DNA of 41,063 nucleotides. Source: a virus. Of this stretch, positions 1,486 to 17,131 are shown piece by piece (position 1 is the first letter of the stretch; each line of letters begins with the position of its first letter). The DNA lies in IMG/VR virus record IMGVR_UViG_3300044766_000068, positions 1 through 41,063 of that record; one strand, given 5' to 3'. The notes beneath the pieces were generated by a model. The model saw only the letters and a program-made list of their open reading frames with translations. It searched no databases and was not told the DNA's origin. Made by a program: the position numbers and the translations under genes.

Positions 1486-3015
1486 TCAGCCGACCAGCCG
1501 GATGCGGCGCTCCGGGGCCGGCATCGTGACGCGACAACCCCGGATCTGCTGGTTGGCGAAGCCTTGAGCCCTCTCGCCCCGACCATAACCAGCAGATGCG
1601 CTCGAAAACGCCTCCGCGAGCCCCCGGGCGATCGCCGCGGGCGTCGGCTCCAGGTGCATCGAGCGCAGCCCCAGGACGTCGACGCGCTCGAAGAGCGACT
1701 CCGACAGCGCCCGGCGCGAGCCCGGCGCGTCGTCCCACAGGCGCGGCAGGTCCCGCAGGTAGCCGACGACCTCGGCCGCCTCGAGCGCCGTGGGCGCCAC
1801 GAGCTCGCGGGCCGCGGTCTCTTGCTCGTCGAGGACGGCCATCGCCGCCTCGAGGGCCCGCGCATCGCGATCGCGCCGGTAGCGGGCTACAGCGGCCTCG
1901 CGTTCGCGCTCGACGCGGGCCAGGCCCAGGCGGTCGGGCTCTGGATCCCGCGTCACGGCGACGACGTCGGCGACCAGGTCGGCGCCGAACGCGATCCGGC
2001 CGAGCACCTCGCGGAAGATCGTCTCGTATTCCGCGGCGCGGTAGCTGGCCCCGGGCATGCCTCGGCGCTGGCCGCGCGTCCGATGGCGCGGCTCGCGCCG
2101 GACGGCCCTGAACGCGTCGCAGGCGTCCGGGTGGCGGTAGCGCCCGGTGTCGCCGATCAGGTGCCGGCCGCAGGCGGCGCAGTGGAGCTGGCTCAGCGCG
2201 TAGGGTCGGCGCGTCGTGACCCGGCCGTCCCGGGTCCGGCGGAGCTCGCGGGTCGCCTGGACGGCCTCCCACAGGGCGGGATCGACGATCGGCGCCCAGT
2301 GCGCTCGCTCGCCGGTCCGGAGTCGGCCGGCGTAGAGCGGGCTCGTGAGCATCCCGCGGACGGTGTAGAGCGGCAGCCCCGTCGCAGCGGCGACAGCTCG
2401 GTCGTTCATCCGCGACGCCGCGAGCTCGAAGGCTCGGACGACCGCCGGGATGCGATCGGGGTCGGCCTCGAGGAGTTTCGTCTCGGGATCGCGCAGAAAC
2501 CCGAACGGGGCGCGACCGCCGGGATCGCGCTGCTCTGCGCGCTTCGCCGCGTAGCCCTCGCGGACACGCCGGCGGTGCTTGCGGAGCCACGAGTCGGCCG
2601 CCTTCGCCTCGTCGACCAGCTGGTCCCAGTGGCGCTCGTTCGACGAGAGAAGCTCCTCGTCGCAGAACCAGACGGCAACGCCGGCCGGGTGCAGGTTCTC
2701 CTCGAGCAGGTTCAGCGTCTGGCGAAGGTTCCGCTGCCAGCGTGCGACGTAGCCGACCAGGAGGAGGTCGAACTCGCCTTCGGCGGCCGCGGCCAGCATC
2801 GCCCGCATCGCCGGCGAGCCGTGGACCGTGGCGCCCGACTGCGCGGCCGACCACTCGAGGCCCGTGTCGACGAGGTCAAGGCGGCGGATCGCGCCGGCCT
2901 GGAGCTCGCGCTGGGCGCCGGGCCCGTAGCGGTCGAACTGTCCCGTCGTGCTCTCGCGGATCCAGCGGGCGACGCGTAGTCCGCGGAGGTCGTCGGCCGA
3001 TCGCGGGAGCCTCAC
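1486..3015 (-). CDS. Large serine recombinase (phage integrase)
   Basis: 509 residues, usual length for the family. The N-terminal resolvase fold has ARWIRESTTGQ with Ser22 as the expected nucleophile, then LLLVGYVARWQRNLRQTL holding the conserved arginines. A recombinase domain (about 150-260) follows, then a zinc-ribbon-like CAACG element with further His and Cys, and a charged coiled-coil segment (about 345-400) typical of serine integrases. It should cut and join attP and attB without high-energy cofactors and set up lysogeny. The GTG start overlaps the previous stop as GTGA. Its presence with an XRE repressor is the main evidence that the phage is temperate. Confidence 0.92.
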   Translation of the reverse strand: MRLPRSADDLRGLRVARWIRESTTGQFDRYGPGAQRELQAGAIRRLDLVDTGLEWSAAQSGATVHGSPAMRAMLAAAAEGEFDLLLVGYVARWQRNLRQTLNLLEENLHPAGVAVWFCDEELLSSNERHWDQLVDEAKAADSWLRKHRRRVREGYAAKRAEQRDPGGRAPFGFLRDPETKLLEADPDRIPAVVRAFELAASRMNDRAVAAATGLPLYTVRGMLTSPLYAGRLRTGERAHWAPIVDPALWEAVQATRELRRTRDGRVTTRRPYALSQLHCAACGRHLIGDTGRYRHPDACDAFRAVRREPRHRTRGQRRGMPGASYRAAEYETIFREVLGRIAFGADLVADVVAVTRDPEPDRLGLARVEREREAAVARYRRDRDARALEAAMAVLDEQETAARELVAPTALEAAEVVGYLRDLPRLWDDAPGSRRALSESLFERVDVLGLRSMHLEPTPAAIARGLAEAFSSASAGYGRGERAQGFANQQIRGCRVTMPAPERRIRLVG

Positions 3016-3263
3016 TTGGCAGGCCGCTCCGGCTCAGCGTATCGGGGCCTGCTCACAAAGCGTGGATCCCACAGCTCGGGGCTGTCCGGATCGAAGGACG
3101 CCGCACGACAGCCACGGACGGGATGCCCTCGGAGGTCGGCGTGATACCAGCTCATGCTCTCGAATGGCTCGATGCCGAGCTCGCCGGCGATCGCATTGCC
3201 CTCGGCCAGGCCCAGACGATGGATCTCCCGCCCGCAATGTCGGCAGGTCGCCTGCTCGCTCAC
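3012..3263 (-). CDS. Small zinc-finger protein
   Basis: 83 residues. The N-terminus has CRHCGREIHRL, and downstream come WYHADLRGHP and a single Cys (about residue 53), giving a likely C2-H-C zinc site. This short pattern is common in small proteins of actinobacterial phages, but no function is established for them. The GTG start overlaps the stop of the 48-residue gene as GTGA, and its own stop overlaps the recombinase start in the same way, so its translation is tied to integrase expression. Confidence 0.7.
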   Translation of the reverse strand: MSEQATCRHCGREIHRLGLAEGNAIAGELGIEPFESMSWYHADLRGHPVRGCRAASFDPDSPELWDPRFVSRPRYAEPERPAK

Positions 3264-3406
3264 GCTGCTCGCCCTCCCTGCTTGCCGCCGGTCACGACCA
3301 CGATCCTACGCCGTCGCTCGGCCGCCTCAGCCTCCCGGCGCGCGGTGATCTCGGCGATCGCAGCTGCGAGCGCCAGGACGATCGGATCGGTCGGTCGGCG
3401 GCTCAC
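3260..3406 (-). CDS. Short charged helical peptide gene
   Basis: 48 residues, function unknown. It has an Ala/Ile/Leu stretch (PIVLALAAAIAEITAR), then a highly basic segment (REAEAAERRRRIVVV) and a glycine-rich tail. It is called because it fills the 143-bp space exactly: its GTG overlaps the stop of the RlpA-like gene as GTGA and its TGA overlaps the GTG of the next gene as GTGA. That double coupling matches the rest of the operon. No signal peptide or zinc motif is seen. Confidence 0.6.
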   Translation of the reverse strand: MSRRPTDPIVLALAAAIAEITARREAEAAERRRRIVVVTGGKQGGRAA

Positions 3407-3969
3407 GGCAGCCGCTCGACCCTGACCGGGTAGAGCCCTCGCGCCGGATCCAGCCCGAGGGCGCGGAGGATTCCGGGCGACAGGTCGACGATCCGCTCAT
3501 CCGGGGTGCCCACGTAGCAGCCGCAGCTCGTGATGACCGTGGCATCGACGTGGAGCGACCCCGACCAGACGCGGATCGTGACGCGGGTCCCGGCGATGTA
3601 GCCCGGCAACGCGGCGTAGATGCCGGGCCCGAAGCTGGCCCACCACGAGGCCACACCCGCGACGCCGCCCGGGGGGACAGGCGACGCCGCGAGGGTGGCT
3701 GCCGACGGCTGGCGTGCCGCCGGGTGGGCCGGTGACGCCGTTTCCGGGGCGAGCGTCACCGGGGACAGGGTTCGGGGCTGATGGACCGCCGGGATTGACG
3801 CATGTCCCGACGCCGATGGCCCGGCGGTCCTGGTCGCCCCGAACGTAGCCGCGCGGACGGCTCCGGGAGCGAGGGCGGAGAGCAGCAGGAAGCCCGCGAT
3901 GATGCCGGCGGCTACCGCGGAGGCCACGGCGAGCCAGAGCGCGGCCCAGGTCAGGGCCGGGCGCGTCAT
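3403..3969 (-). CDS. Membrane-anchored RlpA-like double-psi beta-barrel protein
   Basis: 188 residues. A signal anchor or signal peptide occupies residues about 6-40 (ALWLAVASAVAAGIIAGFLL, then SALAPGAVRA). A Pro/Ala/Thr/Ser-rich linker follows (about 45-100). The C-terminal domain (about 102-188) has GVASWWASFGPGIYAA, AGTRVTIRV, ITSCGCY and IVDLSPGILRALG, the order of conserved blocks in RlpA-like barrels (septal lytic transglycosylase or expansin relatives). It should sit outside the cell membrane facing peptidoglycan. Its place among early genes rather than with lysis or tail genes is unusual; an envelope change during lysogeny is possible. I cannot tell whether it is catalytic. Confidence 0.7.
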   Translation of the reverse strand: MTRPALTWAALWLAVASAVAAGIIAGFLLLSALAPGAVRAATFGATRTAGPSASGHASIPAVHQPRTLSPVTLAPETASPAHPAARQPSAATLAASPVPPGGVAGVASWWASFGPGIYAALPGYIAGTRVTIRVWSGSLHVDATVITSCGCYVGTPDERIVDLSPGILRALGLDPARGLYPVRVERLP

Positions 3970-4478
3970 CCGGCGAATTCCGCGATCTTGATGAGCACGC
4001 CTGGCCCTCCCTCGGCGTTCGCAATGGCGTCCGAATCGGCCCAGCGTTTGCTGGAGTGGCAGTCGACGACCTGCCCGTCGTCGCGCCAGACGCCGGCGAC
4101 CGTGGCAGCATCGCCGATGGCCCGGACGAGCTTGTCGAGGTCGTCGCGCGCCCCGATCGGGCGGGCAGGAGCCGAGGGCAGGAGACGCCCGTGGCGCCCG
4201 TAGTGGCTGGCCGGGCGGGGCAGGAAGAACCAGACCTTGAGAACGACGGCCCCGGTCATCGGGGGGCCCGAGCGTGCCGCGAAGAGCGCTGCGGCCAGGT
4301 CGTTGCGCCAGCTGCGCAGCCGGGGGTTGTCGCTGGTCAAGACGGCGCGGCCGCCGACGACGAACCCGCGCATGGAGCCCTGCGGGATCGGGATGCCGGG
4401 GACGCGGACGGAGAGCTTGCGCCCGGAGGGCCGGACGTCGGCTGGACGGGCGAGCGCGGGGAACATGGGCTCGGTCAC
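3966..4478 (-). CDS. RusA-family Holliday junction resolvase
   Basis: 170 residues. The core has IPGIPIPQGS-like N-terminal strands (VPGIPIPQGSMRGF) and then the RusA signature: DDLDKLVRAIGDA (about 112-124), WRDDGQVVD (about 131-139) and Lys144. The acidic residues bind metal and cut four-way DNA junctions symmetrically. The first start is a GTG at 4478 with AAGGGAA about 6 bases upstream; an ATG at 4466 is possible but lacks a ribosome-binding site. It is the first gene after the repeat-rich gap 4479-4634. With the annealing protein and SbcCD it completes a recombination set. Confidence 0.9.
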   Translation of the reverse strand: MTEPMFPALARPADVRPSGRKLSVRVPGIPIPQGSMRGFVVGGRAVLTSDNPRLRSWRNDLAAALFAARSGPPMTGAVVLKVWFFLPRPASHYGRHGRLLPSAPARPIGARDDLDKLVRAIGDAATVAGVWRDDGQVVDCHSSKRWADSDAIANAEGGPGVLIKIAEFAG

Positions 4479-4634
4479 GACCGATTCCCTTTCCCTTCAA
4501 CCCGCTGGGGGTGCAACGTGTCCCCTCCCCCTCCCGTAGGGAGGGGACCGTGTTGCGCACCCCCTGCGCAACGTGCGCAACACGCGCGCAACATCGTGTT
4601 GCGGTCGGTCGTTCGAGCCTCGGCGCGGGGCGTC
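4479..4634. promoter_or_regulatory. Repeat-rich gap: candidate replication origin or operator
   Basis: 156 bp without a gene between the RepA-like ATPase and RusA. The heptamer GCGCAAC occurs three times forward (4566-4572, 4575-4581, 4586-4592) and once inverted (4552-4558), plus a shortened inverted copy (4598-4603) and a degenerate one (GTGCAAC, 4511-4517). Two pairs form palindromes with 5-base spacers: GTTGCGCA-N5-TGCGCAAC (4552-4572) and CGCAAC-N5-GTTGCG (4587-4603). Beside them is a perfect 8-bp hairpin with a 3-base loop (4528-4546). Iteron-like repeats next to a RepA-type gene suggest an origin; a repressor operator for the RusA operon fits equally well. Confidence 0.55.
4528..4546. 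repeat. Perfect 8-bp GC hairpin
   Basis: CCCCTCCC, loop GTA, GGGAGGGG. No T-run follows on the minus strand, so this is not a canonical Rho-independent terminator, but it could act as a bidirectional attenuator or as a structural element of the adjacent repeat cluster. Confidence 0.55.
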
Positions 4635-5876
4635 TTACGAGGCACGACGGACGACCTCCCAGGTTCCGGACGGGAGCTTGTTGAAACGTGGATCGCGCGA
4701 CAGCGCGACCCGGACCTTGTTCGACTCCTCCTTTTCCATGCCGAGCTCCTCGACGATCTGGGCCACCTCGCGGTGGAACCCGTCCGACAGGAGGTCGGCA
4801 ATCCGCTCGGGCAGCTTCATGGGCTTGCGCAGCTCGTCGGCCAGCATCGCCTCGGCATAGGTGATCGACCCTCCCTCTGTGTACTGGACGTGGAGCCCGC
4901 GGGGGGGTTGGAGTCGCGCGACATTCGACTTCGTGTGGTAGAGCGCGATGGCTTCACCGGCGCGCCGGATCTCCCAGGTCGAGCGCGCGAGGTTCTGCTT
5001 GAAGATCGAGCCGTAGGGCCGCGCTTGACGCCCGGGCTCGTCGAGCGATGCCTTCGCGACGTGGTCCAGCGCGAGCACCGTGGTGCGCAGAAAGCGGAAC
5101 GCCGCGAAGAGGCGGAGCGCCGACTCGGCCGCGTCCGCGCCATCCGACGTCGTACCCGAGGCCGGGCCGACCGAGTCGACGATCACGAGGCCGATGCGCT
5201 CGCGGTCGACGATGCGCGCGAGCTCGTCGACCTGGTCGGCGATCGGCGCCACCATCGGGCGGTAGCGGATCTCGATCGGGCGCGGCAGGTTCGCCCCCGC
5301 AGCCACGCCGGCCACCCGTTCGTTGATCTGCTCTTCGTCCCCCTCCCAGTCGAGGTACAGGACGCGGCCCGGACGCGGGACGAACCCCGGGACTGCCGCG
5401 ACTCCCGACTCGCAGGACACCGCGAACGCCGCGGCGAGGGTGCTCTTGCCGCTCCCGCCCTCGCCGTACAGGATCGAGGGCAGGTTGAGCGGCGCCAGGG
5501 GATCGATGCGGTACGAGACGCCGCCCACGATCCGCGGCCGGGCGCCGACCATGACGACCGGCTCGCCCTCCCGCTCGAGCTCCAGGATCCCCCGGCAGAA
5601 CTCCTCGATGACGTCCATCCAGTCGAGCCCCGGCAGGTTGGCCCGGTCCTTCAGGACGCGCGCGAGCGTCGAGCGCGACGAGCTCGAGGAGAGGTTCAGG
5701 CGCGCGGAGTGCAGGCGCCCGCTCCGGCTCCGCGTCCCGGGCAGCCCGCAGGTCACGCTCACATGGGCCTGCACGTCACCGCGCGATCGCACGAGGCGGT
5801 CGGCCGCCATCTCGGTCGCGATCTCGGGGAAGGTCATCGCGTAGCCCATGCCTTCCCGCCGGACCTCAGGAACCAT
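4635..5876 (-). CDS. RepA-like RecA-fold ATPase (AAA_25 type), putative replicative helicase
   Basis: 413 residues from the first ATG. Walker A is GEGGSGKST (about 138-146) and Walker B is LVIVDS (about 230-235), followed by ALDHVAK as in RSF1010 RepA-like and AAA_25 ATPases. The C-terminus (about 350-413) looks like a winged helix (RIADLLSDGFHREVAQIVEE). It probably opens DNA or loads host replication proteins, since no polymerase or primase is visible. ATGs at 5849 and 5837 are alternative starts; GGGAAGG precedes the former. The first ATG overlaps the previous gene by 11 bases. The repeat cluster directly downstream could be its binding site. Confidence 0.82.
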   Translation of the reverse strand: MVPEVRREGMGYAMTFPEIATEMAADRLVRSRGDVQAHVSVTCGLPGTRSRSGRLHSARLNLSSSSSRSTLARVLKDRANLPGLDWMDVIEEFCRGILELEREGEPVVMVGARPRIVGGVSYRIDPLAPLNLPSILYGEGGSGKSTLAAAFAVSCESGVAAVPGFVPRPGRVLYLDWEGDEEQINERVAGVAAGANLPRPIEIRYRPMVAPIADQVDELARIVDRERIGLVIVDSVGPASGTTSDGADAAESALRLFAAFRFLRTTVLALDHVAKASLDEPGRQARPYGSIFKQNLARSTWEIRRAGEAIALYHTKSNVARLQPPRGLHVQYTEGGSITYAEAMLADELRKPMKLPERIADLLSDGFHREVAQIVEELGMEKEESNKVRVALSRDPRFNKLPSGTWEVVRRAS

Positions 5877-6619: not shown

Positions 6620-7315
6620 TCACGCTGGCACCTCTTCCAGCCCGCGGGCGCGCCGACTCCCCGCGGCTGCCGTGGCAATCCGTGCCGCGCGCGCCTCGGG
6701 CGAGTAGAGGGCCCAGACGCCCTTCAGGATCGCGGACTGCTGCCCGGGTTCGCGGTGCCCGTTGTGCGGGCTTGGCTTCACGGCCGCGATCAGCGGGCGC
6801 TCCTCGAGGAAGAGCGGCAGCGGGCTCACCGGCCGCAGCGCGCACCCGGGCGTCATGCACCGGCCCGACGGCTCGCAGCCGGCGCAGTAGGCCGCCACGG
6901 CTCGCTGGTGCGCGAGCAGGCGCCGCTCGGCCATCGCCGCGCGCGTCCGGCGATCCGTGCCCACGAGGGACTTGCCCCGAACCGACCGGCACGAGAGCGT
7001 GCAGTAGCGGCGGTTGTCCGATCCCGAGTCGTCGACGAACTCGGTGCCGCAGACGAGGCACGTCTTCCGGCGCAGCTCGGCGGCCAGCGCCGCGAGCCGC
7101 GGCCATTCGAGCGCCTCCGCGAGCTTCTCCGCGGTCACGATCCGCGGCAGGATCCGGCCGGTGCGCCAGTACATGACCGACGTGTCGGACGCATGCACCG
7201 CCTGGGCAACCGCCCGCCGCCCGACCTCCCGCGCTTTCATGGCTCGCTCGAGCTCGCGGCCGAACCGGATCGCGCGGTCGGACTTCGTCGAGACGACCGG
7301 GATGAGGTGGCTCAC
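6620..7315 (-). CDS. HTH plus zinc-finger regulator
   Basis: 231 residues. An XRE-like helix-turn-helix lies at about 16-80 (FGRELERAMKAREVGRRAVA, then HASDTSVMYWRTGRILPRI, then AEKLAEALEW). It is followed by a zinc finger, CLVCGTEF with RRYCTLSCRS about 14 residues later (about 95-125), as in zinc domains that detect unpaired or foreign sequence. A second cysteine cluster (YCAGCEPSGRCMTPGC) follows. The GTG at 7315 overlaps the previous stop as GTGA. It sits just before the regulatory gap 6441-6619 and may bind there. A Cro-like or early-gene role is inference. Confidence 0.65.
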   Translation of the reverse strand: MSHLIPVVSTKSDRAIRFGRELERAMKAREVGRRAVAQAVHASDTSVMYWRTGRILPRIVTAEKLAEALEWPRLAALAAELRRKTCLVCGTEFVDDSGSDNRRYCTLSCRSVRGKSLVGTDRRTRAAMAERRLLAHQRAVAAYCAGCEPSGRCMTPGCALRPVSPLPLFLEERPLIAAVKPSPHNGHREPGQQSAILKGVWALYSPEARAARIATAAAGSRRARGLEEVPA

Positions 7316-7461
7316 GTTGGCACCGCCATCCGCAGCACGAACACCGCGACGAACACGGCCAGGACCGCGAGGGCGAACAGCCGGTCGCGTCGCCTGCTCC
7401 GCTGGCAGGTCGCGCAGCCCTCGGGGCCGCAGGGTGGGAGACGGTGGGCGTGGGGCGTCAC
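7312..7461 (-). CDS. 49-residue single-pass membrane peptide
   Basis: Reads from GTG 7461 to TGA 7312. The first 20 residues hold three cysteines (CGPEGCATC) followed by a basic patch (RSRRRDR). A single transmembrane helix completes it (LFALAVLAVFVAVFVL). Positive charge before the helix predicts a cytoplasmic, probably zinc-binding head. It is flanked by GTGA overlaps on both sides, with the HNH gene upstream and the HTH regulator downstream, which is the main reason to call so short a gene. Its function is unknown. Confidence 0.62.
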   Translation of the reverse strand: MTPHAHRLPPCGPEGCATCQRSRRRDRLFALAVLAVFVAVFVLRMAVPT

Positions 7462-7973
7462 AACGCGGCCTTCGCCGTGAGCATCGGCAGCTTGCCCGCC
7501 ACGACGAGCTCGGCCACCGTCTGGCCGCCCGCCGTGCGACGTCGGTAGGCGCGCGCGGCCTCACGCATGCACTCCCGACACCGGCGATGGATCCGACCCC
7601 CGACGACGCGAGGCATGAGGTTGTCGCCGCTCAGCGGGTGCCCCTTCGGGCAGACCTCCTTGGCAGCATTCAGCGCCGAAGGGCTGGTGCCTCGGAGGAT
7701 GTTCTCGGCCGTGCTGACCGGCTCCAGATGCGCGGGGTTGATGCAGTCGTGGGTCCGGCACAGATGGTCGAGCACCAGCTCGTCTGGGATCGGCCCCCGG
7801 ACCAGCGTGTACGCGAGCCGGTGGGCCGGCCACTTGCGCCCATCGATCCGGATCTGGCCGTAGCCCTCGCTGGTCCGCGCGCCCGTCCAAACCCAGCAAT
7901 CGAAGAGCGTGGGCCGCTCGACCTGCTCCCAGAATGCCGCGACTCGGTCGGCTGGGATCCCTGCAAGCGTCAC
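7458..7973 (-). CDS. HNH endonuclease (HNH_3 type)
   Basis: 171 residues. The nuclease core is CWVWTGARTSEGYGQIRI, then PAHRLAYTLVRGPIP, VLDHLCRTHDCINPAHLEPV and ENILRG, the standard order in the HNH_3 family, with the His of DHLC and the HL pair binding metal. After it, CPKGHPL and CRECMREA form a zinc-binding tail seen in the same family. It nicks or cuts DNA and is likely a free-standing homing-type enzyme. It starts at GTG 7973, coupled by GTGA to the gene before it. Confidence 0.88.
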   Translation of the reverse strand: MTLAGIPADRVAAFWEQVERPTLFDCWVWTGARTSEGYGQIRIDGRKWPAHRLAYTLVRGPIPDELVLDHLCRTHDCINPAHLEPVSTAENILRGTSPSALNAAKEVCPKGHPLSGDNLMPRVVGGRIHRRCRECMREAARAYRRRTAGGQTVAELVVAGKLPMLTAKAAL

Positions 7974-8209
7974 AGCCCGGCCTCCTCTCGCGACGCCTTC
8001 GGCTTCCGCCAGGAGGCGCTCTGCGGGCAGTCGCTGAAGTGCGACGTCCCGTCGGCGTTGACCGGGGCGAGCGAGCCCTTCGTGGTGCGCAGCCAGGCGA
8101 TCCGCGCTCCGCAGGAGCGGCAGGTCCGCGTGTCGATCGGGGCTGATGGGGCGATCGCCCAGGGCGGACAGAGCCACGTTTCGCCGCCGCTGGTGACGTA
8201 GGGCGTCAC
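7970..8209 (-). CDS. Small zinc-ribbon protein
   Basis: 79 residues from GTG 8209, which overlaps the previous stop as GTGA; a GTG six codons upstream (8227) is a weaker alternative. It carries CRSCGARIAWLRTTKGSLAP followed by SHFSDCP, so two Cys, a His and a further Cys are spaced like a zinc ribbon. Similar C-C-H-C proteins are frequent in phages of high-GC hosts. The ribbon could bind nucleic acid or a host protein. Confidence 0.65.
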   Translation of the reverse strand: MTPYVTSGGETWLCPPWAIAPSAPIDTRTCRSCGARIAWLRTTKGSLAPVNADGTSHFSDCPQSASWRKPKASREEAGL

Positions 8210-8427
8210 GAGGAACCGCCCCGCCACGTTGCAAGCCGTGCCAGGGCCCGCTGGCGGTCATCGGGGTGGTCGATCTGGAGGGCCTCGGACATGCGACTGA
8301 GGCGGGCCGCCTCGATAGATCGGTCGGTCGGCTTCACTCGGCTGGTGCCGTAGCGATCCTCCCGTTCGTCCCACAGCGCGCTCAAGCGCGCCAAGGTCAT
8401 CGCCCTCGGGCGCCTCCGAGCCTTCAC
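8206..8427 (-). CDS. Short hypothetical helical protein
   Basis: 73 residues, charged and helical (LARLSALWDEREDRYGTSRV, then IDHPDDRQRALARLATWRGG). Not recognised. GTG 8427 overlaps the stop of the metallopeptidase gene as GTGA and is preferred; ATG 8400 is the alternative. No cysteines or membrane segments. It links the metallopeptidase and zinc-ribbon genes in the operon. Confidence 0.55.
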   Translation of the reverse strand: MKARRRPRAMTLARLSALWDEREDRYGTSRVKPTDRSIEAARLSRMSEALQIDHPDDRQRALARLATWRGGSS

Positions 8428-9185
8428 GCCAGCGGGGCCGGCTGGTCGAAGTGCCCGCAGTCCGGGACGTGATTGCTGCCTACGCAGCGGAGCTCGCCAG
8501 GGAGCAGGTCGTCGTCCGCGAGGTCCGCCTCTGCCCTCAGATCGGCGTGGCGAGTCCGGGCCCCTCGCTTGGCCGCCACGTCCGCCGCGGCCTGCTCCGG
8601 GGTCTTGGCAAGCGCCTCCGCCGGCGTGGCGCCCGCGCCGTTGCGGCCCTTCGGCCGGTCGAACGGGACCACGGTCTGGTCGCCCTCGACCGTCGCAGTC
8701 GTGCCGAACGACGGCTCGAACATCGCCAGCTGCTTGTCGAAGAGGGCGATGCTCTGCTGCCAGGCGCCGTACTTGCGGACGACGAAGCCGAACTCCTCGA
8801 GGTCGTGCTTCACGACCCGCAGCGATCCCTTCTCGCTCATCTCGCCGTGGCAGAGCTCGTGGGCGACGAGCGCCTCCTGCTCGGCCGGACCGAGGCGGGA
8901 CCACGCCCAGTCCTCGACCCGGATGATCGCGTCGTAGCCCGTGAGGCCGTGCCAGAGCGGAGGGGTCTTCGAGAACCGGGCGAGGACGACGCAGCCGCCC
9001 TGCTCCTTCGGGCGCGAGCCCCGGACGATGACGCAGCCGAGCTTGAAGTTACCGGTCCAGCCGAACTGGGCGGGGTTGAGGCGGATGAGACGGTGCATGA
9101 CCGTCGAGATCTCGGGGCTGACCTCGTAGACGACCGGAGCGGCCGGCTCCCTGGGCTTGCGGGCGCGGGCGAACGACCTGGCCAT
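8424..9185 (-). CDS. Phage metallopeptidase-like protein
   Basis: 253 residues. The motif VAHELCHGEM (HExxH at 109-113) lies in a domain (about 20-165) resembling the putative phage metallopeptidase family, a zincin fold without a signal peptide, so it acts inside the cell. A variable linker rich in Ala follows, and a C-terminal cysteine/histidine cluster (CVGSNHVPDCGHFD, about 234-247). ATG 9185 has AGAGGAG upstream at good spacing, one of the few strong ribosome-binding sites in the early block. It lies 12 bp after SbcC. Its substrate is unknown. Confidence 0.7.
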   Translation of the reverse strand: MARSFARARKPREPAAPVVYEVSPEISTVMHRLIRLNPAQFGWTGNFKLGCVIVRGSRPKEQGGCVVLARFSKTPPLWHGLTGYDAIIRVEDWAWSRLGPAEQEALVAHELCHGEMSEKGSLRVVKHDLEEFGFVVRKYGAWQQSIALFDKQLAMFEPSFGTTATVEGDQTVVPFDRPKGRNGAGATPAEALAKTPEQAAADVAAKRGARTRHADLRAEADLADDDLLPGELRCVGSNHVPDCGHFDQPAPLA

Positions 9186-9197
9186 GGCGTGCTCCTC

Positions 9198-11408
9198 TCA
9201 GCTGATCTGTTCGACCACGGACCCGCCCGGGCCCTTCGACACGCGGTAGATCGCGTCCCCGACCTCCGCGAGGTCCTCGTGGTGAGAGACGACGACCACC
9301 AGCTCGAGCTCGCCGTGGTGGGCGAGGACGCGCAGGGCCAGGCCGAAGGCGCGGCGCGCCTCGGCATCGAGTCCGTCGGGCTCGTCGATCACGAGCGTCC
9401 GGATGGCGGTTCCCGCCCGGCGCGCCACAAGGCGCGAGAGTCCGACCGCGAGGGCGAGGCTCACGGACATCCGCTCGCCGCCCGAGAAGAGCGAAAGTGG
9501 CCGCTCGCCGACGTCGTCGCGCACGACCAGGTCGAGCGCTTCGACGATGCCCTTGCCGTCCCGCTTCGCTCGCTGGGCCCGGATCGAGAGCGCCATGCCA
9601 GGCCGCAGCTGGTCGAGCAGCTCCTGCGCGTAGCCGGTGAGCTCGGGCAGGACCGATTCGATGATCCGGGCCGGGATCCCGGTGACGCCGAACGCGGCCA
9701 CCAGGCGGCGCAGAAGGGCAAGCTGGGCCTCGGCGCGGGCGACGTCGCCGGCGATCCGATCACGCTCTACCTGGTCGCGCTCGAGGCGCAACAGAGCGCC
9801 GCGGGCCTCGGCATCGGCTGCGATCGCGCCGGAGTGCCGCCGGGCCGCATCGGTGGCCGCAGCGATCGCCTCGCGGCGTTCGGCCTCCGCGGCCTCGAGC
9901 TCGCCAGCTACCTTGAGGGCACCGGATGCCCGCTCGGCCGCCTGCGTCTGCGCAATGCGAGCAGCCTTCCCGGTCGCGTCGATCTCGGCCAGCTCGGCTT
10001 CAGCGCGGCCCAGGGCGGCCTGTGCGTCGAGCAGTGCTACACGTGCGCCATCCCGGGCGATGAGCGCCGACGCGGCGCGCTGTGCGGCCTCCAGGGCCAC
10101 CCGGGCGGTCCGGAGGGCGGCGGGATCCACGGCGGCCTCGGCCAGGTGCTGCTCCGCCCGGAAGATGGCGGCCCGATCCCGGGCGATCGTCATCGGCTCG
10201 GCAGGTTCGGGCCCGACGTCTCGGAGAGCCACTCGTGCTGCGTCCAAGCGGCCGGCGACGTCGCCGGGATCTCCAGGGAAGCGGTGCTGGCACTTCGGGC
10301 AGGTGACCGGGGCCAGGTGCATCCCCTGGTCCTCGAGGGCCGCAACTAGGCCAGCCGCGGTGGCCTGATCCTTCCGCCAGTCCGACCTCTTGCGCTCGAA
10401 GGCCTTCTCGGCCGCCTGCTGGGCGCCCCGGAGGATCTCCAGGTTCTCCCGCGCGGCTAGGTGCGTCAGGGCGGCCGTCTCGCATTCGGCGACGATCGCT
10501 CGGGCTGCCTCGACGTCGTGCTCCGGGACCTCCGCCGCGGCCGCGGCCTTCGACCGCTCGATGGCGGCCGTTGCCATCGCCCGATCCGCGCCGGCCCGGC
10601 GGTAGCGATCGCGGAGGGCGGCGAGATCGGCATCGATGCGGGCGAGCTCGGCGCCCGCGGCCCGTGCCTCAGCGAGGCGCCCGGACAAGGCGGCGATCGC
10701 CCGCTCGGCTGCGTCCCGGCGCTGGCCGGCGGCTTCCATCGCCGCGACCGTCGCCTCCTCTTCGGCCTTCGCCGCGGCCGCGGCGGCTTCGAGCTCGGGC
10801 CGGAGTGAGAGTGATGCGTTGAGCGTGTCCAGGGTCCGGCGATCCGCCGCGGCCTCGCCCTCGATCCCCCGGGCGCGGTCACGAGCCCGGGTCTCCGCGG
10901 CCGCGTACACGTCGAGCCCCAGGACCGAACCGAGGATCCGCTTCCGCTCCGCGGCCGTGGCACTGATGAACGCGTCGGCATCGCCCTGGCGGAGGAAGGC
11001 GGCGGTCGTGAAGGTGGCGGCGTCCAGGCGCAGGAGGGTCTCGATCGTGGCCTGCGTCTCGCGGATCGAGTCAGCGGTCAGCGGCACCCAGCCGCCGTCC
11101 GGGAACTGCACCGCGAGCTCGAGGTAGCTCTTGCCGCCACTCCTGACGGTGCGCCCACGCGTCACGCGGTAGCGGGCGCCGGCGAAGCTGAACGTGATCT
11201 CGGCGGACATGTCGGTCGCGCCGAGACGCACGAGGTCGTCGGTCCGTGCGCGTGCGGCGTCGTAGAGCGCGAAGAGCATGCCGTCGAGGAGGGCGCTCTT
11301 GCCGGCACCATTCGAGCCCACGATCGTGGCCAGACGTGCGCCGTTCGGCTCCCAGTGCGTAGCCTCGTGGGACAGGAAGTTGCGCAGGTCGATCGACTCG
11401 AGCTTCAC
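9198..11408 (-). CDS. sbcC: SbcC/Rad50-like exonuclease ATPase subunit
   Basis: 736 residues. Walker A is GSNGAGKS (31-38). Two alanine-rich coiled-coil arms (about 170-365 and 385-560) flank a zinc hook CPKC (370-373). The ABC signature LFSGGERMS is near 640-648 and Walker B TLVIDEPDG near 671-679, followed by a VVVVSHHEDL H-loop. It pairs with the nuclease encoded just upstream to process DNA ends and hairpins. It is shorter than bacterial SbcC (about 1,000 residues) because the arms are shorter, as in phage gp46-type proteins. The GTG start is coupled to sbcD by GTGA. Confidence 0.93.
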   Translation of the reverse strand: MKLESIDLRNFLSHEATHWEPNGARLATIVGSNGAGKSALLDGMLFALYDAARARTDDLVRLGATDMSAEITFSFAGARYRVTRGRTVRSGGKSYLELAVQFPDGGWVPLTADSIRETQATIETLLRLDAATFTTAAFLRQGDADAFISATAAERKRILGSVLGLDVYAAAETRARDRARGIEGEAAADRRTLDTLNASLSLRPELEAAAAAAKAEEEATVAAMEAAGQRRDAAERAIAALSGRLAEARAAGAELARIDADLAALRDRYRRAGADRAMATAAIERSKAAAAAEVPEHDVEAARAIVAECETAALTHLAARENLEILRGAQQAAEKAFERKRSDWRKDQATAAGLVAALEDQGMHLAPVTCPKCQHRFPGDPGDVAGRLDAARVALRDVGPEPAEPMTIARDRAAIFRAEQHLAEAAVDPAALRTARVALEAAQRAASALIARDGARVALLDAQAALGRAEAELAEIDATGKAARIAQTQAAERASGALKVAGELEAAEAERREAIAAATDAARRHSGAIAADAEARGALLRLERDQVERDRIAGDVARAEAQLALLRRLVAAFGVTGIPARIIESVLPELTGYAQELLDQLRPGMALSIRAQRAKRDGKGIVEALDLVVRDDVGERPLSLFSGGERMSVSLALAVGLSRLVARRAGTAIRTLVIDEPDGLDAEARRAFGLALRVLAHHGELELVVVVSHHEDLAEVGDAIYRVSKGPGGSVVEQIS

Positions 11409-12550
11409 GCCGCAGCCTCCAGGAGCTCGCGTCCGAGCGCGACGAGGGCGTCCCGGTCGGGGTCGTCGGCGAAGTAGGCCGACAGCGCCTCCAGCGGGCC
11501 GAGTGACTCCGACAGGCCGCCGGCGATCTCCGGGGCATCGGGGCGGAGCCGCCGGATCTCGGTGATCTCGAAGGCGCCGGCGGCCTCGAGGTCACTCCGG
11601 AGCTGGACGACGTCGACGTCTGGATGCACGTCGACCGCCCGGACGATGGCGCCCTCGATCTGGACCTCGCCGAGGTCGTCGATCGTGTCGGTGAGGGTCA
11701 CGAAGCGCCGCGCCGGTGTCTCGACGAAGGTCCAGCTAGGAACGACGAGCCCGGTCGTCCCGTCGCGCTCGACGTCGACGACCATGTAACCCTTGGACTG
11801 ATTGGCTTCGCCGAAGTCCGTCCGGTAGGGCGACCCGGCGTAGGCGATCAGTGGTCGCTCGGAGAGCACCTGGTGCAGGTGGAAGTGCCCGGCGACGATC
11901 GCGTCGAAGCCGATCGCCCCGAGAGCGCGCGAGTCGACGACCAAGCTCATGTCGCCGAGGAAAGCTTCCTGCGATGGGCTCATGAGCCCGCCAGCCAGCC
12001 CCTGATGCACGACCAGCACGGTCGCGCCGGTCGTCATCTCGCGCGCCTGCGCAAATAGACCGCGGGCCATCGTCAGGAAGGCATCGCCGAGCACGCGGAA
12101 GATGTCGGCCTCGGGGACGCTTTCGTAGCCCGACAGGGCCCGAAGGTGGTGCTTGTCGAGATACGGCAGCACCGCGATCGCCGTGTCGTCGACCAGGATC
12201 ACGCCCGGGCGCGAGAAGCCGGCCCAGCCGGCCCGTCCGGCCGCCAATACGTCGACGATCGAACGGTCGGCCCGCAGGCCGTCGTGATTGCCTCGAGCGA
12301 GGATCGTCGGCCCGCCGAAGGCGTCGAGCGCCTCGCCGATCTGTGCCACGCGCCACGGCGCAGGGTGCCGCGATTCGGACAGGTCGCCGGCCACGATCAG
12401 AGCGTCGCAGCCGCGCTGGCGCGCATCGTTGGCGACCCATCGGACCATCCCGACGGTGTCAACCCATCGCGCGTTGAGGCCCGACGCGGCGTCGATCTTC
12501 GACCCGAAGTCGTCGCAGTGCGGATCGGCGAGGACGGCCAGGCGCGTCAC
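11405..12550 (-). CDS. sbcD: SbcD/Mre11-like nuclease subunit
   Basis: 381 residues. The phosphodiesterase motifs are in order: ADPHCD (8-13), GDLS (about 55-58), GNHDG (about 87-91), VVHQG and GHFHLHQ (about 221-227), together coordinating two metal ions. The C-terminal part is a capping domain that contacts the SbcC partner. The GTG start overlaps the stop of the HNH gene as GTGA. With SbcC it forms the phage counterpart of T4 gp47/gp46, likely making recombination substrates or protecting the genome ends. Confidence 0.93.
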   Translation of the reverse strand: MTRLAVLADPHCDDFGSKIDAASGLNARWVDTVGMVRWVANDARQRGCDALIVAGDLSESRHPAPWRVAQIGEALDAFGGPTILARGNHDGLRADRSIVDVLAAGRAGWAGFSRPGVILVDDTAIAVLPYLDKHHLRALSGYESVPEADIFRVLGDAFLTMARGLFAQAREMTTGATVLVVHQGLAGGLMSPSQEAFLGDMSLVVDSRALGAIGFDAIVAGHFHLHQVLSERPLIAYAGSPYRTDFGEANQSKGYMVVDVERDGTTGLVVPSWTFVETPARRFVTLTDTIDDLGEVQIEGAIVRAVDVHPDVDVVQLRSDLEAAGAFEITEIRRLRPDAPEIAGGLSESLGPLEALSAYFADDPDRDALVALGRELLEAAA

Positions 12551-13140
12551 CGGACGTGCCCCCAGGTCCGTCCGAGCGCCACGTAGGCGATTGCGACGTC
12601 GCTCACGCCGAACTCGACTGCGAGCGTGTCCAAAGCCTCGCCAGCAGTCCGCCGGCGGCGAATGGCCCTGACCGTATCGGCGGTCAGCTTGGCGCGACCG
12701 TTGCCCTCACCGCGATGGGCACCAGAGCGCAAGAGTCCGGCGCTGACCCGGTCAGGGTGCCGTCGGGCGCCGTTGCGATCGCCGATCGCCGCGCGACCCT
12801 TCGCGATCATGTCCGCGCGGTTGTCGGCGTTCGAACCCGGGAACAGATGGCCGGGACGGATGCACGGCGGGTTGTCGCAGGTGTGAAGCGACTCGTCCCG
12901 TCCGAGATGACGGCCAAGGGTTATGCCGAGTGAGACCCGGTGAGCGAGCTGCCGCACGCCGCGCTTCCCGTTGGACAGGGTGTCGTAGCCCCCCCGGTTC
13001 CGGCTCCCGGTCCACTCCCAGCATCCAGACTCCATCTCGACGAAGCGTCCGTCGAAGACAGCATGCCAAGCGAAGAGCCCCCGCCACTCGGGCGTCGCGG
13101 TGGTGACGAGCAGAGCATCGAAAGCGGGAGCGGTGTTCAC
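12547..13140 (-). CDS. HNH endonuclease with C-terminal HTH
   Basis: 197 residues. The N-terminal part has CWEWTGSRNRGGYDTLS, AHRVSLGITLG, then SLHTCDNPPCIRPGHLFPGS and NRADMIAKGR, the HNH_3 order. The C-terminus (about 148-190, KLTADTVRAIRRRRTAGEAL then GVSDVAIAYV) is a helix-turn-helix as in homing nucleases that bind long sites. It has a GTG start with GTGA overlap upstream, and the stop overlaps sbcD the same way. Its insertion inside the recombination operon without breaking the coupling is notable. Confidence 0.88.
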   Translation of the reverse strand: MNTAPAFDALLVTTATPEWRGLFAWHAVFDGRFVEMESGCWEWTGSRNRGGYDTLSNGKRGVRQLAHRVSLGITLGRHLGRDESLHTCDNPPCIRPGHLFPGSNADNRADMIAKGRAAIGDRNGARRHPDRVSAGLLRSGAHRGEGNGRAKLTADTVRAIRRRRTAGEALDTLAVEFGVSDVAIAYVALGRTWGHVR

Positions 13141-13421: not shown

Positions 13422-14527
13422 CCCGCCTGCGCCCCTGCCACGAGCTCGCGCCAGAGGTCGCCGAACTCGGCGTCGACCGCGCACTCGATGACAGCCTGGG
13501 CCTGGGCGGCGGTGATGTCGCCCAGGGATGCGAGGCCGAAGACGATCCTGAGCCCGACCGCCGTCGCCGGCAAGCCCAGGGGCTTGAAGACGAGCTGCAG
13601 GCGCTCCTTCTGCGGGGCCGTCGCCGGCCCGACCATGCCGGAGCTCGCGGCCTTCTCCCGGAGGATCGCGGCCAGGCGCATGGCCGGCGTCTGGGTCGGC
13701 GCAGCAGCCTCCGGCGCGGCCACGGTGGTCCCGAACCAGGAGGGCTCCGGGCCGGCATCGGTGGCCTGGCCATCGATCACACCGTCGTCCTCGGGCGCCT
13801 CGGGCGCCTGGATGTCCGGCTGACCAGCCGCCAGCTGGGGCGCCGGAGCCGGCCCGTACAGCTGGGCCACCGAGGGCGCCATCGCTTCGATGATCCGGGC
13901 TCGGACCTCGGGATGGTTCATGTTCGGCACGATCGAGAAGACCGCGAACGGCTTGACGATGTCGGCGTCCGGGTAGCTCGAGCGCAGCGACAGGAGCCCT
14001 CGGATGGCCCGGTTCTTGGCGCGCGTCGAGACGTGGGCGTAGAACTGCTTCCGGAACTTCGCGACCGACTGCGCGCTCGCGTCCTTCCCGAACCAGGTAC
14101 TCAGATCGATCATCTGCGAGCCGGGGGCGGTGACCCGCTGCCCGCTCGGGAGCAACATCGAGGCCATCACGGTGACGCCGATCACGTTCGGGTCGCTGCC
14201 GTCGTCGCTCCGCCGCTCGTCGTAGAAGCTGACCGAGGCCGCGGTCGCGACCTTGTTCAGCCCGCGGGCCGTCAGGGCGCGGTGGCCGGCCGGGGTGTCG
14301 CTCGAGCTGTAGTGGTCAGCCGACTTGCCCTGGCCGTCTGCCGGATCCAGCTGGACGACCTGGACGATCGGGACGAAGAGGTCGGAGGGCATCCGGATCG
14401 TCTGGATCGGGCTCAGGCGGTTGTACCGGGCCGTGGGGAAGGCGTCGAGGTTGTACTCGATCCCCTGGGCGACCGAGACGAGGGCGCTCGTCGCGGGCGG
14501 CGCGGTGGTTGGCTTCGTGTCCGTCAC
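13418..14527 (-). CDS. Probable single-strand DNA annealing protein
   Basis: 369 residues. The N-terminal domain (about 15-210) contains RKQFYAHVSTRAKNRAIRGL followed by SLRSSYP and KPFAVFSIVPN, resembling the conserved core around AKNRAIR of phage annealing proteins. A Pro/Ala-rich linker (about 225-290) and a compact helical C-terminal domain (QKERLQLVFKPLGLP and beyond) follow. Such proteins anneal single strands made by an exonuclease such as SbcCD. I cannot assign it to the RecT, Erf or Rad52-like class. The GTG start overlaps the HNH gene. Confidence 0.5.
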   Translation of the reverse strand: MTDTKPTTAPPATSALVSVAQGIEYNLDAFPTARYNRLSPIQTIRMPSDLFVPIVQVVQLDPADGQGKSADHYSSSDTPAGHRALTARGLNKVATAASVSFYDERRSDDGSDPNVIGVTVMASMLLPSGQRVTAPGSQMIDLSTWFGKDASAQSVAKFRKQFYAHVSTRAKNRAIRGLLSLRSSYPDADIVKPFAVFSIVPNMNHPEVRARIIEAMAPSVAQLYGPAPAPQLAAGQPDIQAPEAPEDDGVIDGQATDAGPEPSWFGTTVAAPEAAAPTQTPAMRLAAILREKAASSGMVGPATAPQKERLQLVFKPLGLPATAVGLRIVFGLASLGDITAAQAQAVIECAVDAEFGDLWRELVAGAQAG

Positions 14528-14907
14528 GTGCTCGCTCCTCTTCGATGGGCCCGGGCAATCCCGGCCGTTCGCTCGTAGACGCAGGCCCGGCAGATGCGGA
14601 CCTGTGGTTTTGCGCGCCGACGGATCAAGTTCGCCTCGTCATCGAGCCGATGGCCACGGATGCAGAGCGGCTTGAAAGAGCGCCTGGTCAGCCCGCGGTT
14701 CACGCCCAGCGGGAGCGGACGCAGGTGCTCATCGTTCACGCAGGGCCGGACGAAACAGGTGTGGTCCACGTCCATCCCCGGCGGGATCGGGCCGTGCACA
14801 CGCTGGTAGGCGACGCGATGAGCGAGCTGGCCCTTCTGCCCCCGATACGTGCACCTCCCATAGCCATCGGAGTCGGTGTACCCCGGCCAGATGACGCAGT
14901 CGCTCAT
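14524..14907 (-). CDS. HNH endonuclease (short HNH_3 type)
   Basis: 127 residues. CVIWPGYTDSDGYGRCTY, AHRVAYQRVHGPIPPGMDVD, HTCFVRPCVNDEHLRPLP and CIRGHRLDD follow the HNH_3 plan, with CRACVYER at the end as the second zinc half. ATG 14907 is preceded by AAGAGGAG at good spacing, a strong ribosome-binding site that begins a new translational unit after a 34-bp gap. It is the third of three related nucleases in the early block. Confidence 0.88.
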   Translation of the reverse strand: MSDCVIWPGYTDSDGYGRCTYRGQKGQLAHRVAYQRVHGPIPPGMDVDHTCFVRPCVNDEHLRPLPLGVNRGLTRRSFKPLCIRGHRLDDEANLIRRRAKPQVRICRACVYERTAGIARAHRRGAST

Positions 14908-14941
14908 GTGCTCCTCTTCCCGGCCAGCGGCCGGCGTCGTG

Positions 14942-15574
14942 TCAGGCGGGGTCGGTAACCCCTGCCAGAAGGTCGGATTTGGCCCCTCCCAAGTCCGCAG
15001 CCGCGATTTCGGCGTCCGCGTGGGTGTTCGCACGCCTCGCATCGCCCTGCGACTTGCGAGACGGGTTGGCGGTCCAGTCCGCGAGGCCCATCGGCAGGAA
15101 GCAGCCGGAGCAGTACCAGTGCGCCGCTTCGGGGCGGTCGCAATCGGGGCACCGTTGCGAGAGGCGCCGCTCGAGGGCCGCCAGCTCTTCGGGGCTCACC
15201 GGCGAACGTCGCCGCGCCTGGATGAAGGCGATCCGCTCGGCCTCGCTCATCTCCAGGCGGTTGGCGGGGATGGCGACCGGGGCGTCGGGACCCCGGAGGA
15301 GCGCAGGAAGGGCCCTCGAACCCGCATCTGCGGGGCGACCCTGCCGGGGCACACCGTTGCGTAGATCGTGTCCTGCGCTCCTCGGGAGCGGCGATGCGGC
15401 GACAGTCCGGGCGAGTCGGGAGACGCGGGAGACGGCGCGGCGGCGGGGCGTCATGAGTCGGCTGAGCCCCGAACCGGTTCCGCCGCAGCGGGGGCATCGC
15501 ACACGCTCCCATCCCGGGCGGCCCTTGACGCGGATGTCGCCCTTGCCGTTGCAGGTCGTGCAGACGTGGCCCAT
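14942..15574 (-). CDS. Zinc-ribbon protein with DnaJ-like CxxCxGxG pair
   Basis: 210 residues if read from ATG 15574. The start holds CTTCNGKG and, about 19 residues later, CPRCGGTG, the DnaJ-type zinc pattern. A low-complexity middle (about 40-105) is followed by EAERIAFIQARRRSPVSPEE and a zinc ribbon CPDC with YCSGC. The reading frame has no stop, but the middle is not protein-like, so these may be two proteins: ATG 15454 overlaps the stop of the gene before it as ATGA, and ATG 15250 begins the second conserved part. The function is unknown. Confidence 0.55.
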   Translation of the reverse strand: MGHVCTTCNGKGDIRVKGRPGWERVRCPRCGGTGSGLSRLMTPRRRAVSRVSRLARTVAASPLPRSAGHDLRNGVPRQGRPADAGSRALPALLRGPDAPVAIPANRLEMSEAERIAFIQARRRSPVSPEELAALERRLSQRCPDCDRPEAAHWYCSGCFLPMGLADWTANPSRKSQGDARRANTHADAEIAAADLGGAKSDLLAGVTDPA

Positions 15575-16083: not shown

Positions 16084-16187
16084 CGCCGGCGGCCTTTCCG
16101 GAGGCGCCGTCGCTCCCACTCGAGGAGCGCGCTGAGACCGGCGGCGGCCAGGAAGGCGATGGCGACGGCGATGAGGAGGGCGATCAT
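16080..16187 (-). CDS. 35-residue single-pass membrane peptide
   Basis: One transmembrane helix (MIALLIAVAIAFLAAAGLSA) followed by a strongly basic tail (WERRRLRKGRRR), so N-out/C-in by the positive-inside rule. GGGAGG lies 7 bases before the ATG, and the ATG overlaps the repressor stop as ATGA. It is the second gene expressed from the repressor promoter, so it may be made in lysogens; an exclusion or membrane-targeted role is possible but unproven. Confidence 0.65.
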   Translation of the reverse strand: MIALLIAVAIAFLAAAGLSALLEWERRRLRKGRRR

Positions 16188-16396
16188 GGGAATGCCTCCC
16201 CTGCGGGCTGCGATGCGGCGATGAGAACCTGACGCAGTGCCTTGGCCTCTTCGGTCGTCGGGGCCACGCCGCGCTCGATGATCGACAGGCGCCCAGAACT
16301 GATACCGCTGCGCCGCGCGACCTCGTTCATGGTCAGTCCGGGGAGCGTTTCCCGCCATGCGCGCCAGGAGGTGCGGGTTCCGTCTGTGCTTTGCAT
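16184..16396 (-). CDS. XRE-family HTH repressor-like protein
   Basis: 70 residues, essentially one XRE helix-turn-helix: LPGLTMNEVARRSGISSGRL then SIIERGVAPTTEEAKALRQV. There is no cleavage or dimerisation domain, so it resembles Cro or minimal immunity repressors. I chose ATG 16396 because a promoter (TTGACA, 17 bp, CATAGT) places transcription start on the A of this ATG, making a leaderless message; ATG 16411 and a start at 16438 are longer options. A 7-bp palindrome covers the -10 and the start codon, so it probably represses itself. Confidence 0.75.
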   Translation of the reverse strand: MQSTDGTRTSWRAWRETLPGLTMNEVARRSGISSGRLSIIERGVAPTTEEAKALRQVLIAASQPAGEAFP

Positions 16397-16410
16397 AGCG
16401 CCACTATGCA
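16392..16410. promoter_or_regulatory. Palindromic operator over the repressor promoter
   Basis: TGCATAG-CGCCA-CTATGCA, perfect 7-bp arms with a 5-base spacer. It covers the -10 element (16403-16408) and the repressor start codon (16394-16396). A dimeric XRE protein bound here would block RNA polymerase, giving autoregulation. No second exact copy was noticed in the other gaps. Confidence 0.65.
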
Positions 16411-16781: not shown

Positions 16782-17131
16782 TCACGCTGGCCGCGGCCGC
16801 GGGACTGGCGGTAGAGTTCCTCCTGATCGCCGCGACGCGATCAGGAGGTCCCTATGCGATCCACCCACGCTACACATACACGGCCGCAGCCTTCGGGCTG
16901 ATCATCGCCGCCGAGCTGATCGCGATCGCGCGTTGGCCGCTCCTCCGGGTCGTCATCGGGGTCGTCCTGGCGGGCGCGATCGTCTCCAACGCCGTGTCGC
17001 TGCTGGTTGGTCCGGGCCTCTGGGGGGCTGGCCGCTACCAGCTCCCGACGGCCTTCGGGTGCATCCCGGTAGCCTCGATCACCGACCCCGACGGGCTCGT
17101 GCAGACCATTCCGCCCGGGGGGCGCTGCTAG
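16781..17131 (+). pseudogene. Truncated plus-strand membrane protein fragment
   Basis: About 116 codons of convincing membrane protein: hydrophobic segments LTLAAAAGLAVEFLLIAAT, TAAAFGLIIAAELIAIA and VVIGVVLAGAIVSNAVSLLV separated by short loops (IHPRYTYT, ARWPLLR), ending at TAG. No start codon or ribosome-binding site exists before the conserved part; the frame opens only at a TTG at 16739 within the propeller remnant. It resembles the C-terminal part of a bacterial polytopic enzyme such as a GT-C glycosyltransferase, but I cannot assign it. Opposite orientation to all phage genes suggests host-derived DNA. Confidence 0.55.

Follow-up and report, generated by a model that had tools for sequence, protein, structure and literature searches.

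A candidate replication origin of iterons and a nested hairpin next to a RepA-like ATPase gene in a virus genome

Gene setting of the gap between the ATPase gene and rusA

The window, by which we mean the whole stretch of DNA analyzed here, corresponds to a 41,063-bp virus record in IMG/VR. Nearly all genes of this phage genome lie on one strand, and those around the locus of interest are transcribed leftward. A gap of 156 bp separates the gene of an AAA_25 ATPase from rusA. The features of the locus, in window positions, are as follows.

3966-4478, minus strand: RusA-like Holliday junction resolvase, the first gene past the array (PF05866, E = 7.5e-13; phrog_140)
4479-4634, no strand: intergenic gap between the 3' end of the ATPase gene and the 5' end of rusA, with the proposed origin (array and hairpin)
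4511-4517, minus strand: degenerate iteron (GTTGCAC on this strand), beyond the hairpin and inverted relative to 4551-4557
4520-4548, no strand: GC-rich hairpin, with the inverted iterons 4511-4517 and 4551-4557 on either side
4551-4557, plus strand: iteron TGTTGCG, exact
4567-4573, minus strand: iteron CGTTGCG, one mismatch
4576-4582, minus strand: iteron TGTTGCG, exact
4587-4593, minus strand: iteron TGTTGCG, exact
4597-4603, plus strand: iteron TGTTGCG, exact
4635-5876, minus strand: RepA-like AAA_25 ATPase, proposed origin-binding helicase (PF13481, E = 2e-21; model pLDDT 82; match to RSF1010 RepA)
4635-4859, minus strand: C-terminal winged-helix domain of the ATPase in the predicted structure, proposed iteron reader

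The start of rusA, a GTG at 4478, is backed by an 80%-identical homologue. Past rusA, two ORFs without a PHROG or Pfam match (3403-3972 and 3012-3263) are followed by a large serine integrase (1486-3015). Genome contigs that encode relatives of this integrase are mostly titled Chloroflexi or Chloroflexota (27 of 29), which points to a Chloroflexota host. A PHROGs scan of 28 window ORFs gave no primase or polymerase, in line with an earlier note on this DNA, which had stated that the phage has neither. SbcC-like and SbcD-like subunits are phage-encoded (9198-12550, minus strand), and the 41-kb record has three HNH endonuclease-like genes (7458-8261, 12547-13140 and 14524-15042, minus strand). 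The 6-mer GATCGC has five copies within 100 bp at 16824-16920.

Repeats and hairpin in the gap

Six GTTGC-type repeats lie within about 94 bp of the gap, at 4511 (GTGCAAC), 4552 (GTTGCGC), 4566, 4575 and 4586 (GCGCAAC each), and 4598 (GTTGCG). Palindrome 1, GTTGCGCA-N5-TGCGCAAC, occupies 4552-4572, and palindrome 2, CGCAAC-ATCGT-GTTGCG, occupies 4587-4603, with a 5-base spacer in both. An 8-bp hairpin, CCCCTCCC-GTA-GGGAGGGG, lies at 4528-4546 within a 10-bp pairing that spans 4520-4548. The earlier description of the gap between the ATPase and RusA genes (six related copies in about 95 bp, two palindromes of equal 5-base spacing and an 8-bp hairpin) thus holds.

The repeats form the top-scoring cluster in the window. 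When 1,633 overlapping 250-bp segments were each scored by the Poisson tail of their best 7-mer, the array ranked first (7.5 versus 5.7 for the next), its top 7-mer being CGCAACA with four copies. Chance clustering was rejected on this ranking and on simulation: CGCAAC occurs five times in 100 bp, and it never exceeded three copies in 200 Markov simulations. The recurrence of any 6-mer at least five times in 100 bp was seen in 37 of 60 simulations and is therefore commonplace in such GC-rich composition. The exact spaced-palindrome pattern had no match in IMG/VR, and comparison of the gap DNA with 400 Chloroflexota genomes gave short, chance-like matches only.

Folded as single-stranded DNA, the block of iteron, hairpin and iteron (4505-4562) forms one long stem (z = -5.25), and none of 200 shuffles was as good. 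The nested-hairpin test, in which the iterons were fixed and the remaining bases shuffled, gave the same count for the window (0 of 200), but the right-hand iteron departs from TGTTGCG at two bases and was counted only after its motif had been relaxed to the core, GTTGC. An intrinsic terminator was considered for the hairpin and rejected, because a T run is absent after it and a terminator scan called none there. No AT-rich opening region is evident at the gap. The GC skew of the window, which the earlier note had put forward as a check, has no minimum near 4.5 kb and so does not support an origin at the gap, although this result is not decisive because the genes are nearly all on one strand.

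The ATPase and its relatives

AAA_25 is the only family that clears the Pfam cut-off for the window ATPase. In a Foldseek search with its AlphaFold model (14 sequences; mean pLDDT 82, pTM 0.65), Rad51/RadA-type chains lead by E-value; RSF1010 RepA (1g8y) stands at rank 45, with an rmsd of 3.2, the lowest among the matches listed, and a TM score of 0.68 by target. For the last 74 residues the predicted fold is a winged helix, with three helices and a wing of two strands (pLDDT 78.5), and the best matches of this domain model are winged-helix DNA-binding domains, at a weak E-value of 7.5e-3. What the models predict is a helicase fold with a winged helix. Walker A Lys144, Glu178, Asp234, His272 and Arg298 are invariant across 14 sequences, and identity between the window ATPase and its relatives in alignment A4 is 22-35%.

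The relatives include Prim-Pol/PriCT_1/AAA_25 fusions (L090, L092 and L096) and a DnaB_N/AAA_25 fusion (L067, 5261-6781; E = 1e-31); the element of L067 also encodes an integrase and has an array past the 3' end of the ATPase gene. Fusions of these two kinds place the family of the window ATPase in replication.

Relatives were detected by protein search in 6 of 20 and in 11 of 177 genomes, and profile A2, made from seven ATPases, has matches in 17 of 400 Chloroflexota genomes. A search of IMG/VR with short exact peptides found none, and the phage and plasmid collections gave none beyond one match at E = 0.1. For the comparisons below we sampled 45 distinct distant ATPases: those of Chloroflexota genomes, those of IMG/VR contigs, and five of Actinomycetota type. 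Loci holding the same place were counted once (e.g., L044/L062 and L050/L063/L068); two weak matches below the profile cut (L048 and L049) and a duplicate of L092 (L091) were left out.

Arrays downstream of distant ATPases

An array was called when the 250 bp after the ATPase stop codon scored at least 6, a threshold that was set after the scores had been seen; the window scores 7.4. The first six relatives were inspected by eye and seemed to have an array 3' of the ATPase in each case, although one of them (L064) later scored zero. By score, arrays lie directly 3' of 27 of the 45 ATPases. The first scored set contributes 16 of 24, and two sets collected after the idea had formed contribute 8 of 13 (IMG/VR) and 3 of 8 (all 3 new Chloroflexota-class ATPases and none of the 5 Actinomycetota-type ones). 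Scores below 6 were obtained for 18 of the 45, including all five Actinomycetota-type relatives. As controls, none of 18 regions 5' of the ATPases reached the threshold, and 2 of 279 regions 3' of other genes did; one of these two (L027) is the same ATPase as L066, leaving 1 of 278.

The repeat differs between elements, with top 7-mers such as TGTCCCG, TGTCGCG, TGTCTCG, TGTCCGG, TGTAAGT, TGTAGCG and TGTTCTC. Of 37 regions, 24 score at least 6; near the top, TGTNNNN is found in 15 of these and TGNNNNN in 19, and the window iteron, TGTTGCG, has the form TGTNNNN. Exceptions to TGTNNNN include repeats of the GGTAC type (L062 and L095), CGTCCGG (L089) and CGGGAAT (L081).

The nested layout recurs with other letters, for example as TGCGACA-hairpin-TGTCGCA in L110 and CGGGACA-hairpin-TGTCCCG in L109. 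The iterons were chosen from the output of the 7-mer survey and by eye; of 34 regions tried, 30 were testable, and 20 of these have a hairpin nested between inverted copies at p <= 0.05. A 60-nt fold reaches z <= -3 in 12 of the 45 family regions and in 2 of the 278 controls, and a plain count of perfect-arm hairpins at p <= 0.05, weaker than the nested test, gave 13 of 37 regions on the 3' side versus 2 of 28 on the 5' side. What the data show is the array, the hairpin and an arrangement that is conserved among diverged ATPases. The gene after the array varies, being rusA in the window, HNH-like in L062, an integrase module in L066/L067, and others elsewhere; therefore, the array travels with the ATPase. 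In L062, a gene just upstream of the ATPase (7876-8790) is possibly archaeo-eukaryotic primase-like, its family matches being weak.

On the tree of the ATPases, where the placement of the window ATPase is weakly supported, 12 rows have no called array, and 7 of these share one starred set of 8 with L081; for this reason the array may characterize only some members of the family. A label test on the tree says little, as it compared strong with weak arrays only and left out the 12 array-less rows. Five pairs of ATPases have different iterons, and in these the identity of the C-terminal 75 residues falls 8 to 28 points below that of the core; in one pair with the same iteron, the difference is 3 points. 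L070 and L088, whose iterons are TGTCCCG and TGTCCGA, share 87% identity in the core and 73% over the last 75 residues. With six pairs, this is only suggestive that divergence of the C-terminus goes with iteron change.

Function of the gap

We consider it likely that the gap is the replication origin of the phage and that the adjoining RepA-like ATPase is its initiator helicase. This reading is supported by the fact that, in most of the sampled distant relatives, an array occupies the same position next to the ATPase gene, where repeat and downstream gene both differ from those of the window. Together with the Prim-Pol and DnaB fusions, these arrays speak in favor of what the earlier note had held plausible, an origin recognized by the RepA-like protein.

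The rival idea of that note, an operator for the integration operon, has lost ground. A phage HTH protein or the ATPase would bind the array and control transcription of rusA and the downstream integrase. The array does lie directly 5' of the rusA and integrase operon, inverted pairs are common in operators, and an HTH_31-like protein, below the Pfam cut-off, is encoded at 6620-7564. However, the array keeps with the ATPase in relatives although the downstream gene changes, a simple scan for sigma-70-like promoters, covering this type only, found none in 4300-4800, and an XRE-like gene of the phage has a different palindrome at its start codon. On balance an operator seems unlikely. The XRE-like gene (16187-16396, minus strand) encodes a small protein whose helix-turn-helix fold was read by eye; its palindrome, TGCATAG-N5-CTATGCA (16392-16410), overlaps the start codon and is unlike the GTTGC array, and the two are a possible phage repressor and operator.

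Self-regulation occurs in some iteron origins elsewhere, and the gap sits between two same-strand genes. The gap might be a dual element, in which the ATPase, bound to the iterons of the origin, would in addition repress transcription through the gap. Because the array lies 3', not 5', of the ATPase gene, repression by the ATPase of its own promoter is improbable, and we judge the dual element very unlikely. A partition site, a recombination site or a terminator-like decay structure would fit the presence of repeats and a stable hairpin, and in mycobacteriophages Miko and Rachaly repA is directly followed by a parS locus of five direct repeats (PMC7157519), but given that no ParA/ParB family was matched in the 28 ORFs scanned with PHROGs and that the terminator was rejected as above, this explanation is extremely improbable.

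For the origin, we infer iteron binding by the ATPase, hairpin extrusion, strand opening and use of a host primase. The winged helix at the C-terminus of the ATPase would bind the TGTTGCG copies in both orientations, and the ATPase would assemble as rings around the central GC-rich hairpin, itself framed by inverted iterons and extruded or opened in the process. The helicase would then unwind the DNA, and a primase and polymerase of the host, or unrecognized ones of the phage, would be recruited.

More broadly, we lean slightly towards the view that the locus exemplifies a widespread and apparently undescribed class of origins. In this class, RepA-type (AAA_25) helicases with a winged-helix reader of their own would be followed by NNNNACA - hairpin - TGTNNNN and extra iterons. 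Conserved contacts would recognize the TGT half, and a rapidly evolving recognition helix the remaining four bases. The open-licence PMC literature, in the parts available, yielded no description of an AAA_25 protein with this arrangement.

Comparison with known systems

The following comparisons draw on the portions available of the papers cited. In the rep/ori of SaPIs, multiple short iterons lie directly downstream of the initiator helicase gene, and the C-terminal domain serves as their reader (PMC7581432). The window likewise has an iteron array directly 3' of the proposed initiator helicase gene, and the counterpart of the reading domain is the predicted winged helix. Two things differ: SaPI Rep is DUF927-related or Primase_Cterm/D5-like (PMC7581432), whereas the window protein is RecA-fold AAA_25/RepA-like, and the window has an iteron-framed hairpin. 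The window origin would work like an SaPI-type origin but is not a member by helicase family. In SCCmec, the C-terminal domain of the helicase Cch2 binds AAGTG direct repeats just downstream of its gene, where there are inverted repeats too (PMC7581432). The window shares the repeats just past the proposed helicase gene, inverted copies included; SCCmec differs in its helicase family and in having three 5-nt iterons. The general principle of an initiator helicase followed by its iterons is already known from SaPIs and SCCmec, and what would be new is the helicase family, the common TGT anchor and the nested hairpin.

In plasmid pRN1, an essential stem-loop lies just downstream of the gene for ORF904, a replication protein with a winged helix, and the authors propose a similar 3' stem-loop origin for some phages (PMC4234260). 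The window, too, has a stem-loop 3' of its putative replication gene, but pRN1 combines a prim-pol and SF3 helicase with a stem-loop of about 100 nt, no iteron array being argued in the available text, and the window protein is neither prim-pol nor SF3. The oriV of RSF1010 has iterons plus hairpins (PMC4234260), as does the gap, and the window ATPase, by its match to 1g8y, is predicted to share the RepA core fold. RSF1010 has one protein, RepC, to read the iterons and another, the primase RepB', to read the ssi hairpins, whereas the RepA-like helicase of the window has a predicted winged helix of its own, and the PHROGs scan of 28 ORFs gave neither a RepC-type iteron binder nor a RepB' primase. 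PrimPol-PV1/PrimQH proteins join an AEP primase, a RepA-like helicase and a winged helix, and the winged helix of PolpTN2 has been speculated to recognize the origin (PMC5862659). Their domain order equals that of L090, L092 and L096; the window protein differs in having no primase part. The available text of PMC5862659 shows no downstream iteron arrays for PrimPol-PV1/PrimQH.

If the reading as an origin class is true, each phage or mobile element would have a private origin with a readable protein-DNA code. A rule drawn from one repeat cluster, to look 3' of the AAA_25 ATPase, would predict the replication start in many uncultured phages and integrated elements. It would also supply dozens of natural helicase/iteron pairs for studying origin choice by winged helices, and might open a way to build plasmid vectors for Chloroflexota.

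The locus in relatives of the phage

No close relative that keeps the ATPase was found, and none of 13 viral records with relatives of the capsid, RusA or integrase carries it. Two phage relatives with an 80%-identical RusA (L006 and L007) lack both the ATPase and the gap, and in L007 rusA comes directly after a different gene. In these phage mosaics, a small sample, the ATPase and the array are missing together. At the place of the ATPase, three phage relatives have another two-gene module (L007, 2950-4004; L011, 2119-3194; L013, 1779-2836). It has no family match at E <= 0.001 and is possibly an alternative replication module.
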